A stretch of 39,498 nucleotides of DNA from Candidatus Zixiibacteriota bacterium (GTDB lineage Bacteria > RBG-13-66-14 > B26-G2 > WVWN01), in the NCBI GenBank assembly GCA_030613505.1, contig JAUWLW010000028.1, forward strand, positions 1 through 39,498, in the 5' to 3' direction. Under the pieces are notes generated by a model. It had not been told where the DNA came from and made no database searches. It saw only the letters and a list, made by a program, of their open reading frames with translations. Positions 16,770 through 27,865 of this stretch are shown in pieces. Every line of letters begins with the position of its first letter. Position 1 is the first letter of the stretch. The translations under genes were made by a program, and so were the position numbers.

Positions 16770-17474
16770 CTATGCCGTCAGCCGCCGAACCACTTCCTCG
16801 TAGTGGCTCTCTACTTCGCCCAGATCGAAACGGAATCTATCTTTGTCGAAGACTTCGCCGGTGGCGGCGTCCCATATACGGCACGTATCCGGCGAGATCT
16901 CGTCGCCGAGGTATATCTTCCGGCCCCGCTCGCCGAATTCCAATTTGAAGTCCACGAGCTCCAAGCCTCGGTCTTTCATGTAGTTCGTCAATACGCGGTT
17001 CACTTTGGCCGCTTCCGCTTCAACATGGCTCAACGTCCGCTCCGTCATATAGCCCAGGACAAGGACGTGATTGCGGTTCATCATCGGGTCGTGCAGGTCG
17101 TCGTTTTTAAGGTAGTATTCCAACAACGGCTTTTTCAAAACCGTTCCACGCTCGAGGCCGTAACGTTTCGCCAGGCTGCCCGCGACTCTGTTGCGCATTA
17201 CTATTTCGACGGGAAACATCTCGAGTCGTCGCACAAGCAACGTACGTTCGTCGAATTGTTTTTCGAAGTGGGTAGCTACCCCCGCGCGCTCGAGAACGGC
17301 GAATAACTTGGCCGACATCGTCGCGTTATACACACCCTTCTTTTTAATCGTGCCCTTCTTGACGCCGTCGAAAGCGGTGGCGCTGTCTTTGAATTCGGCC
17401 CAAAGTACACCCTCGTCGTCGGTCTCAAAGATCCGCTTAGCCTTACCCTCGTAGAGAAGCTCGCCTTTCTCCAT
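16770..17474 (-). CDS. purC: SAICAR synthetase
   Basis: Couples aspartate to CAIR with ATP. Conserved features are L-L-Y-E-G-K-A-K-R-I-F (about 6-16), F-K-D-S-A-T-A-F-D-G-V-K-K (about 28-40), P-V-E-I-V-M-R-N-R-V-A-G-S (about 88-100) and the late L-V-D-F-K-L-E-F-G, L-G-D-E-I-S-P-D-T-C-R-I-W-D. I choose ATG 17474 because AGGAGA sits just before it; a GTG 21 bases upstream would add seven Arg/Lys-rich residues encoded by the ribosome site itself. 234 residues, normal for the family. It is the first gene behind a strong promoter. Confidence 0.97.
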   Translation of the reverse strand: MEKGELLYEGKAKRIFETDDEGVLWAEFKDSATAFDGVKKGTIKKKGVYNATMSAKLFAVLERAGVATHFEKQFDERTLLVRRLEMFPVEIVMRNRVAGSLAKRYGLERGTVLKKPLLEYYLKNDDLHDPMMNRNHVLVLGYMTERTLSHVEAEAAKVNRVLTNYMKDRGLELVDFKLEFGERGRKIYLGDEISPDTCRIWDAATGEVFDKDRFRFDLGEVESHYEEVVRRLTA

Positions 17475-25143: not shown

Positions 25144-25503
25144 ATGGAAAAAACCGCCGAAATATTCAAAGCCCTCGCCGAGCCCAACCGCGTACGCATC
25201 CTGGCGGCGCTCGCGGCGCGGCGGGCTTGCGTGTGCGAGCTGTCGCAAGCGTTGGCGCTCAACCAACCCAACGTCTCCCGCCACCTACGGATCCTCAAAG
25301 ACGCGGGCCTGGTCGAGAGCCGGCGCCGCGGCGCCTGGACCGACTACGTACTGAATCGGAACGCCGAAAACGCGCCCTTTATGCGGCTGGTTAAAAAATT
25401 GGCCGCCTCGGACGACGCGCTTAAAAAGGACGCCGAGGCGCTGGCGAAAGCGGACCGGTTGCAAATCCAAAAGTGTAATAAAAAAATCCCAAGACGCCGA
25501 TAA
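25144..25503 (+). CDS. arsR: ArsR/SmtB-family metalloregulator
   Basis: 119-residue winged-helix repressor. The helix-turn-helix region is about residues 34-58 (L-S-Q-A-L-A-L-N-Q-P-N-V-S-R-H-L-R-I-L), and just before it is A-C-V-C-E-L with Cys29 and Cys31, the arsenite-binding CxC of classical ArsR proteins. A later wing holds R-R-R-G-A-W-T-D-Y. The basic tail contains a further Cys and ends K-K-I-P-R-R-R. The ribosome site before ATG is weak. Being first behind the consensus promoter and operator, it most likely represses its own operon with the thioredoxin and ACR3 genes until arsenite or antimonite binds. Confidence 0.93.
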   Translation: MEKTAEIFKALAEPNRVRILAALAARRACVCELSQALALNQPNVSRHLRILKDAGLVESRRRGAWTDYVLNRNAENAPFMRLVKKLAASDDALKKDAEALAKADRLQIQKCNKKIPRRR

Positions 25504-25592
25504 ACGTACGATATACCCACGGTGCAACTCCGCCGGCAATCGGCCGTAAGTAATCGTACGACCGCCTGCGTCGCTTAACGTTAGGAGGAAAG

Positions 25593-25844
25593 ATGAAAGT
25601 CGAAATTTTCGGGCCCGGGTGCCCCCGTTGCGAGGAGACGTTTCGGACGATAATAAACGCCGCCGCGGAACTCGAAATCCCGGCGGACATCCAACATATC
25701 ACGGACGTAGCGACGATCGCCGAACGCGGCATTATATCTACGCCGGCCGTGGCCGTCAACGGCGAGGTGGTCCTGCACGGGAAAACTCCCACGCGCGCCC
25801 GGGCCAAAGAAATCCTCCGGCAATACTACGCCGCCGAGAAATGA
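25593..25844 (+). CDS. Small thioredoxin-like redox protein (CPRC)
   Basis: 83 residues forming a minimal thioredoxin fold: beta start M-K-V-E-I-F-G-P-G, active site C10-P-R-C13, and the cis-proline segment I-S-T-P-A-V-A-V-N-G near 49-58. It belongs to the redox-active disulfide protein 2 / thioredoxin_3 group found in anaerobes, often next to arsR and permease genes. TAGGAGG lies just before the ATG, a strong ribosome site. The role is inferred: reducing a metalloid species or the regulator's partner in the arsenic cassette. No arsenate reductase gene is seen nearby, so it may take part in arsenate reduction or thiol cycling. Confidence 0.9.
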   Translation: MKVEIFGPGCPRCEETFRTIINAAAELEIPADIQHITDVATIAERGIISTPAVAVNGEVVLHGKTPTRARAKEILRQYYAAEK

Positions 25845-25894
25845 AGACTTCCCCTCCCGGTACGACGTACCGCCTCTCAGGACGGTAACCGCTG

Positions 25895-26953
25895 ATGCCC
25901 TCCCCCCGCGCTAAGTCGCTCAGCTTCTTCGACCGCTTCCTAACGCTGTGGATATTCACGGCGATGGCCGCCGGCGTGAGCGCGGGTTACGTCTTCCCGC
26001 AGCTCGCCGACGTCCTGGGTCGGTTCAGCGTCGGTACGACGTCGATTCCGATCGCCGCCGGCCTCATCCTCATGATGTACCCGCCGCTGGCGAAAGTCCG
26101 CTACGAGGAAATGGGCCGGGTCTTCCGGAACGTTAAAATCCTCGGCCTGTCGCTATTTCAAAACTGGGTTTTGGGGCCGATACTCATGTTCGCCCTCGCC
26201 GTCCTTTTCCTCCGGGGCTACCACGAGTACATGGTAGGCCTGGTTATGATCGGCCTCGCCCGGTGCATCGCGATGGTCATCGTCTGGAACGATCTCGCGG
26301 GCGGGGACGCCGAATACGCCGCGGGGCTCGTCGCGTTGAACTCGGTGTTTCAGGTATTCTTCTATTCGCTTTACGCATACTTCTTCCTCACGATCGTGCC
26401 GCCCTTACTCGGCCTGCACGGTACCGCCGTCGCCGTGACCATCGGCCAAATCGCTAAGAGCGTTTTTATATATTTGGGGGTCCCGTTCCTGGCCGGGGTT
26501 ATCACGCGGTTCGCCTTCCTGCGGTTTAAGGGCCGAGAGTGGTACGAGGCGAAAATCGTACCCCGCCTCGCGCCGATAACGCCGGCGGCGCTACTCTTCA
26601 CGATCGTCGTTATGTTCTCGCTGAAGGGGCAACACATCATCGCGATCCCGCTCGACGTCCTCCGGATCGCGGTCCCGTTGGTCATTTATTTCGTCGTGAT
26701 GTTCCTCCTGTCCTTCGCCATAAGCAAATGGGCCGGCGCCCCCTACGCCCAAGCGACGTCGCTCTCGTTCACCGCGGCCTCCAACAACTTCGAACTAGCC
26801 ATCGCGGTAACCGTCGCCATTTTCGGCTTGAACTCCGGCGCGGCCTTCGCGGCCGTCATCGGACCGTTGGTCGAGGTTCCCGTCCTTATCGGCCTGGTGA
26901 ACGTGGCGCTGTGGTTCAAGCGACGATGGCGTCCCCTCCCGAACGCTGTATAA
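25895..26953 (+). CDS. acr3: ACR3-family arsenite efflux permease
   Basis: Pumps arsenite (and sometimes antimonite) out of the cell by proton exchange. The 352-residue protein has about ten hydrophobic helices. Recognisable blocks are [11 protein letters not shown] (about 58-68), F-Q-N-W-V-L-G-P near 86-93, and [16 protein letters not shown]-x-G-D (about 124-142) containing the essential Cys128. The late block [15 protein letters not shown] is near 290-304, and the A[11 protein letters not shown] element is near the end. The ATG is preceded by AGGA at about 12 bases. It is the last gene of the ars operon, with a bidirectional terminator right after its stop. Confidence 0.95.
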
Positions 26954-26979
26954 AAAAGGCGGCTCGAAGGCCGCCTTTT
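26954..26979 (+). terminator. Bidirectional intrinsic terminator
   Basis: Perfect 10-bp stem AAAAGGCGGC / GCCGCCTTTT with 6-base loop, then TTTTATTTTTATTTTT on the plus strand. The minus-strand exit is TTTTTTATA, so it also serves the convergent gene ending at 27007. Confidence 0.93.
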
Positions 26980-27006: not shown

Positions 27007-27744
27007 TTAGTTAAACAAACCCTTTATGCGGCCGACGGACGAGGGCTCGACGGGCACCTCACTCCACGTCGCCAGCCTGGCCTGGTACACCGCTTTGGTC
27101 CCGTGGTTCTGGACCCACACGACGAAATGAAGGTTGTTCCGCTTCCAGGCGCCGGCCAGTTTGCCGTTTACGGTAACTTGCTTGGTTTCGTTATTATTGA
27201 TGGCGAACGCCGTCCCGGCGGCGCTGGGGTACATTTTACGGAGCACGTAGTGATAGTCGCGGCCGCTGTAACTCAGGTTTTGCTCCGTCACGGCGCAGTG
27301 GAAACGAAGGCCGGAACTCGCCATCGGCCCCTGCCGTTTTATCGTCGCCTTGACCGTAAAATTATCGCCCGAAGTCGTTATCTTCGATTTCATCTCGAGC
27401 GGGCTTGCGACGTTCTTGCGCTGGTTGAATATGGCCGGCCACGTCGTAGGCGGTTGACCGGTTACGACGCCGTCGAAGACGGCCGTGGGCGTAACCCTAA
27501 TCCCATAATACGAACACCGCGCGTCGGCGTTGGCGAAAGGGTCCGAGTCACCCCACGTCGGATGGTACTCTACCACGGCGAACCTGCCCGGGTTGTTCTT
27601 GTATATTTCATGGAACTGCGCTTCCGCAGCCGGGCACGTCGCTCAAAACGTGGAGGTTACAAGCTCCCCCATAACCACCCGCGTGAAGGCCGATGCCGAG
27701 ATCGCGCCAGCGAAACAAAGTATCAATATCGTTAACTTCTTCAT
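27007..27744 (-). CDS. Secreted thioredoxin/Omp28-like selenoprotein with U-A-T-C motif (TGA-encoded Sec)
   Basis: Predicted 245 residues when the in-frame TGA at 27643-27645 is read as selenocysteine (residue 34). Residues 1-19 are a signal peptide (M-K-K-L-T-I-L-I-L...A-S-A). The fold begins V-V-M-G-E-L-V-T-S-T-F, then U34-A-T-C37-P-A-A-E-A, which is the CxxC-P-A-A-E site of Omp28/thioredoxin-like secreted proteins with Cys replaced by Sec. After it come A-V-V-E-Y-H-P, D-P-F-A-N-A-D-A-R and Y-Y-G-I-R-V-T-P-T-A-V-F-D-G (cis-Pro), all normal for the family and in the same frame. A beta-rich tail (F-V-V-W-V-Q-N) ends S-S-V-G-R-I-K-G-L-F-N. AAGGAG precedes the ATG at 27744. A gene caller would start at GTG 27576 and lose the active site. 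Alternatives are a nonsense mutation or sequence error. Confidence 0.85.
27614..27645 (-). promoter_or_regulatory. Candidate bacterial SECIS hairpin following the TGA codon
   Basis: In the mRNA, 13 bases after UGA, CUGCG pairs with CGCAG around a GAAG loop; two more G-U pairs extend the stem to 7 bp. The loop begins with G and lies about 20 bases from UGA, as bacterial SelB-binding elements require. Hairpins are common in GC-rich DNA, so this supports but does not prove recoding. Confidence 0.55.
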
Positions 27745-27865
27745 CGTACCGCTCCTTAGCGCGTAGTTTAGTTACGTGAACAGTATAATAACCGTTTCCG
27801 TCGCGTAATGTAAGAGGAATTCAAGACATCCGCTCAACCGGCGCGTCTCCGTGGGCCGTTTTACC

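Follow-up and report, generated by a model that had tools for sequence, protein, structure and literature searches.

The 39,498-nt window analysed here, contig C55 of a 2.86-Mb, 93% complete genome of a Candidatus Zixiibacteriota bacterium, carries on its minus strand a gene whose single in-frame TGA almost certainly encodes selenocysteine in an exported thioredoxin-like redox protein. We hold with high confidence that the gene as a whole is best explained as coding for an exported selenoprotein with a Sec34/Cys37 thiol-disulfide redox site and a location probably directed by a short C-terminal tag. The larger novelty lies in the company of this gene rather than in the gene itself, the protein being one of a large, apparently undescribed group of exported selenoproteins with this tag in common.

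The frame begins with an ATG at 27744, ends with a TAA at 27009-27007 and is interrupted once, by the TGA at 27645-27643 (residue 34, STFUATCPAAE). The earlier note had described this frame, open except for one TGA, together with the AAGGAG and the signal peptide, and we recovered it exactly as described; the sequence of the signal peptide is MKKLTILILCFAGAISASA, with a putative cleavage site at its end. Naming the product Omp28- or thioredoxin-like was also right, given the PF11551 match, the model and the structural relatives presented below. The description of the gene stands, except that it missed the C-terminal tag, which is common to dozens of exported proteins. Annotation pipelines that stop at TGA would report a selenoprotein gene of this kind as truncated.

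Table 1. Features of the selenoprotein gene and its flanks, in window coordinates.
Feature	Coordinates	Strand	Basis or remark
Selenoprotein gene, Omp28-like thioredoxin-fold protein	27007..27744	(-)	245 aa with Sec34
Ribosome-binding site AAGGAG	27752..27757	(-)	direct sequence reading
N-terminal signal peptide, ~residues 1-20, lipobox Cys absent	27685..27744	(-)	sequence and low pLDDT
In-frame TGA, selenocysteine 34 (almost certainly), UxxC redox site	27643..27645	(-)	codon counts in homologues
Candidate bSECIS hairpin, GAAG loop on a 7-bp stem, 18 nt 3' of UGA	27614..27631	(-)	folding energy, orthologues
Predicted thioredoxin-fold domain, residues 20-112	27409..27687	(-)	model; PDB thioredoxins Z ~10-11
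Predicted Omp28-type beta-sandwich domain, residues 114-231	27052..27405	(-)	PF11551 50.6 bits; 2r2c Z 12.3
C-terminal tag VEPSSVGRIKGLFN	27010..27051	(-)	genome-wide motif recurrence; pLDDT 58-60, disordered in model
Likely intrinsic terminator GGCGGCcttcgaGCCGCC + T run, 3' of gene	26951..26976	(-)	by-eye reading

Relatives of the window protein were found in 23 of the 98 genomes searched. In 41 distinct homologues translated through TGA, the position matching residue 34 is encoded by TGA in 28 and by a Cys codon in 13, with no other codon in any. A close Sec/Cys pair from a single genus of the phylum illustrates this alternation (FTNYTUPSCPSADAA in L033, FTNYTCPSCPSADAA in L027). Only three columns of a 36-row alignment are invariant, namely residue 34 (Sec or Cys), C37 and P86.

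According to its AlphaFold2 model (pLDDT 89.5, pTM 0.84, with low confidence for residues 1-20 and the last ~15 residues), the window protein is a thioredoxin fold followed by an Omp28-type beta domain, and its PF11551 score lies above the gathering threshold of 34.9 bits. As in other thioredoxin-fold proteins, the UxxC site stands at a helix start and P86 at the cis-Pro position, the latter assigned by position and not by geometry. The closest solved structure is that of HBP35 from P. gingivalis (5y1a, Z 24.3 over 224 residues). Further matches are 2axo (Z 19.1 over 192 residues), which we take to be a DUF1223 protein (PF06764), as well as the 2r2c Omp28 domain and solved thioredoxins at the scores given in Table 1.

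HBP35 reduces insulin, and this thioredoxin activity is lost in a double Cys-to-Ser mutant of its active site (PMC2907840), which by analogy makes that of a Sec-for-Cys thiol-disulfide oxidoreductase acting outside the cytoplasm the best-supported role for the window protein. In the cell, SelB and Sec-tRNA(UCA) would insert selenocysteine at UGA34 under the guidance of a hairpin immediately 3' of it, and the signal peptide would export the product. Sec34 and Cys37 (U-A-T-C, facing the cis-Pro position 86) would then form a selenenylsulfide/selenolthiol couple that may form, reduce or rearrange disulfide bonds in proteins of the envelope or surface, like HBP35 with its CxxC, while the beta domain of Omp28 type probably either displays the active site or provides a binding surface for a partner. 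A selenoprotein with another main role, either heme or metal binding, as suggested by the hemin binding also reported for HBP35 (PMC2907840), or arsenic handling, as suggested by the convergent arsR-trx-ACR3 genes of the window, appears unlikely: no residues other than those of the UxxC pair and the cis-Pro position are invariant, which points to redox catalysis, and the ars genes lie on the opposite strand and share no operon with the selenoprotein gene. The arsenic genes themselves span 25144-26953 and consist of arsR, a gene for a small CxxC thioredoxin (25593-25844, GPGCPRC) and a gene for an ACR3-type arsenite transporter; the same arrangement adjoins the selenoprotein gene in L050 and L051. 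An operon link between the two was rejected because of their opposite orientation.

Far less probable is a pseudogene or a sequencing or assembly error, in which the TGA would be a nonsense mutation or a miscall. A lone TGA in an intact frame does have the appearance of a fresh nonsense mutation, and such events may exist in this genome, where an NHL-propeller gene (L087, G000:C11 near 3093) carries a TGA at a position occupied by Trp in the other repeats (GKUGSFG), which is more suggestive of nonsense or misassembly than of Sec. At residue 34 of the window protein, however, TGA recurs at one alignment column among 28 distinct homologues from many separately assembled genomes and alternates only with Cys; its recurrence in separate assemblies makes a base-calling error very unlikely. 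It is kept in orthologues from three further species of the genus, at 80, 76 and 73% identity, and from one species of the order, at 41-42% identity, a conservation far beyond chance. Moreover, the region downstream of the TGA is, as judged from dN/dS (0.16, 0.13 and 0.23 for the same-genus orthologues at 80, 76 and 73% identity, respectively), under purifying selection.

The presence of a Sec machinery in the genome also argues against a pseudogene or error. We found a tRNA-Sec (66.7 bits, over the cut-off; anticodon TCA by ARAGORN), SelA (403 bits), SelB (319 bits) and SelD (344 bits), the last of which has its own TGA at the canonical UxxK site. The earlier note had proposed Sec insertion in an exported disulfide-type protein and had named the residue aligned to position 34 in homologues and the genes selA, selB, selD and tRNA-Sec as checks; with all four genes found and only Sec or Cys at residue 34, its proposal gains support, yet it overlooked that the family already had the status of a selenoprotein (GOS_C / NF045500). 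It had also pointed out that TGA ends other genes here. TGA is indeed the working stop of four of the 33 listed window genes (TAA 23, TAG 6), making a general reassignment unlikely, and reading UGA as another amino acid, through a code change or Trp/Cys readthrough, is the least credible explanation of all, as the aligned residue is only Cys and never Trp and the genome has a dedicated tRNA-Sec with a UCA anticodon besides SelA, SelB and SelD.

The hairpin that would guide Sec insertion has a folding energy of -12.6 kcal/mol (z -2.2 versus synonymous recodings, 0.3% of which are equal or better) and lies within the published bSECIS limits for stem, loop size, G in the first two loop bases, spacing (16-37 nt) and MFE (PMC13188914). 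Its stem is conserved in three of four orthologues, the most distant one (L024) having the hairpin only in a shifted register, and one of the seven stem pairs shows a compensatory change. The strong covariation expected of a SECIS element was not found in the Omp28 set (five orthologues; 93 of 500 shuffles do as well), nor was a general energy excess across the family (mean z -0.29 over 30 TGA rows, two of them duplicates and 28 distinct, versus -0.15 in Cys rows), and for these two reasons we grade the hairpin as a candidate only.

The window protein ends in the PSSVGRIKGLFN tag. A DNA search with the pattern G-R-[V/I/M]-K-[A/G]-L-F returned 65 matches in this genome, 40-72 in three same-genus genomes, three in one genome of the same order and one in one genome of the same class, while a reversed-pattern control returned 0-1 matches. 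All but one of the 65 matches in this genome end one residue before a stop codon, and positions preceding the tag G are conserved as well (P in 62, S in 61, L or V in 60), giving the consensus P-[TAS]-S-[LV]-G-R-V-K-A-L-[FY]-[RK] (for example in L073, L091, L119 and L157). A start and a hydrophobic signal were detected by a crude test in 39 tagged proteins; many of those with no called signal are cut by an in-frame TGA or by the ends of their loci. The variant SWGxIKA[LM] occurs in another family of the phylum. No NCBIfam model matched four such tagged tails, and a literature search for the tag string returned nothing. The tag would function in sorting or anchoring, and probably directs the window protein to the envelope or surface location of the dozens of other tagged proteins.

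The T9SS translocon SprA was detected in five genomes, and eight genomes contain 29-67 canonical T9SS tails each. SprA of the present genome is at G000:C76:36408-40127 (L170, 218 bits), and a tagged protein gene lies nearby at C76:34706. The NCBIfam scan of the window protein gave no match to TIGR04183 (Por_Secre_tail). Six canonical tails were read in these genomes and none has the tag, so the idea that it is simply the tip of the canonical T9SS domain was rejected. Two sites in the same genome, G000:C78:14343 and 17218-17370 (L158, L062), hold fragments resembling another Omp28-like protein, one of them with the same tag.

Reading the tagged genes that had no proper start exposed further in-frame TGAs, which fall into two families. 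Family A ("PFxGCUG" proteins) comprises exported proteins of ~220 aa, with 27 copies in this genome, 22-28 in three same-genus genomes and 1-2 in each of seven more genomes from the phylum (loci include L143, L073 and L216, the tandem array at G000:C56:28018-33242). In the family A alignment, TGA fills one column, PFxG-[C/S/T]-U-[G/D], in 54 of 88 stretches, some of which overlap between loci; Cys never occurs there, the remaining rows showing G, A, S, F, P or a gap. For each of 48 Sec copies examined, the mRNA 3' of the UGA has a better fold than the average synonymous recoding, and 46 of the 48 show a G-initial triloop 21 or 24 nt downstream of that codon; a codon-anchored alignment gives a clear helix, one pair of which varies (AU 16, GC 10, UG 7, UA 4). 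Family B consists of exported beta-helix proteins (PF13229), 12 copies in five genomes (loci L145, L140 and L235; G000:C62:23241, C39:41575-44172), each with exactly one TGA, placed at a conserved CxxU (CPGU) motif in the copies read. GGTAC/GTACC hairpins are visible in family B, with no folding-energy signal beyond synonymous recoding (mean z 0.12). Neither family is listed as selenoproteins in NCBIfam, Pfam or the 2026 selenoprotein catalogue. By eye, 56 of the 58 Sec copies of families A and B end in a variant of the tag.

Targeted searches thus give at least 17 inferred selenoprotein genes in this genome, a lower bound made up of 11 of family A, four of family B, the Omp28 protein and SelD; for comparison, six is the published criterion for a 'selenoprotein-rich' organism, and a 2016 paper cites a set of at least 39 as the largest in bacteria (PMC5029168). 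We consider it probable that this lineage, likely Coatesbacteria, has a large exported selenoproteome, with at least 16 exported selenoproteins in this genome that belong mostly to two undescribed families and share a hitherto unnamed C-terminal tag for sorting or anchoring, different from the T9SS domain that these genomes also employ. Exported selenoproteins of apparently new families would thereby appear in a phylum that is uncultured and has none reported in the literature searched; a search for selenoproteins in connection with Omp28 or Coatesbacteria likewise found none. The short tag marking dozens of exported proteins may be a new sorting signal, and both this possibility and selenium chemistry outside the cytoplasm are directly testable.

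Among known families, the window protein is closest in kind to 'Hypothetical protein GOS_C', a UxxC family listed in the 2026 selenoprotein catalogue that corresponds to NF045500 (PMC13188914), was described by Zhang and Gladyshev in 2008 from 74 Sec sequences of ocean metagenomes and has a Trx-like fold (PMC2398784); NCBIfam names it 'Omp28-related selenoprotein'. Both combine a Trx-like fold with an Omp28-type region, have Sec first in UxxC and have Cys homologues, but the NF045500 model covers 377 positions as against 245 aa in the window protein, which carries the short C-terminal tag. The window protein scores 36.2 bits (E 4.3e-9) against NF045500, far below the curated cut-off of 200 bits, as do its orthologues, and this sequence comparison makes it a divergent variant of an exported selenoprotein family already known, related to curated NF045500 and outside it. 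It shares the C-terminal beta domain with Omp28 lipoproteins (PF11551, NF033782; 2r2c) but has no lipobox, and its NF033782 score is under the cut-off (30.6 of 150 bits). DUF1223 (PF06764) is similar in fold through 2axo, the window protein scoring 28 bits, just below the Pfam gathering threshold of 30.7. The gene adds to the Omp28-type selenoproteins a divergent branch that has a structural relative whose activity is known. This relative, HBP35 (5y1a), is an exported protein with the same two-domain fold and a CxxC thioredoxin site, and its last C-terminal residues are required for transport to the surface. HBP35 differs in having Cys in place of Sec, in sharing 15% identity with the window protein and in its C-terminus, a T9SS-type domain with KVLVP as its last residues, whereas the window protein ends in the short tag.
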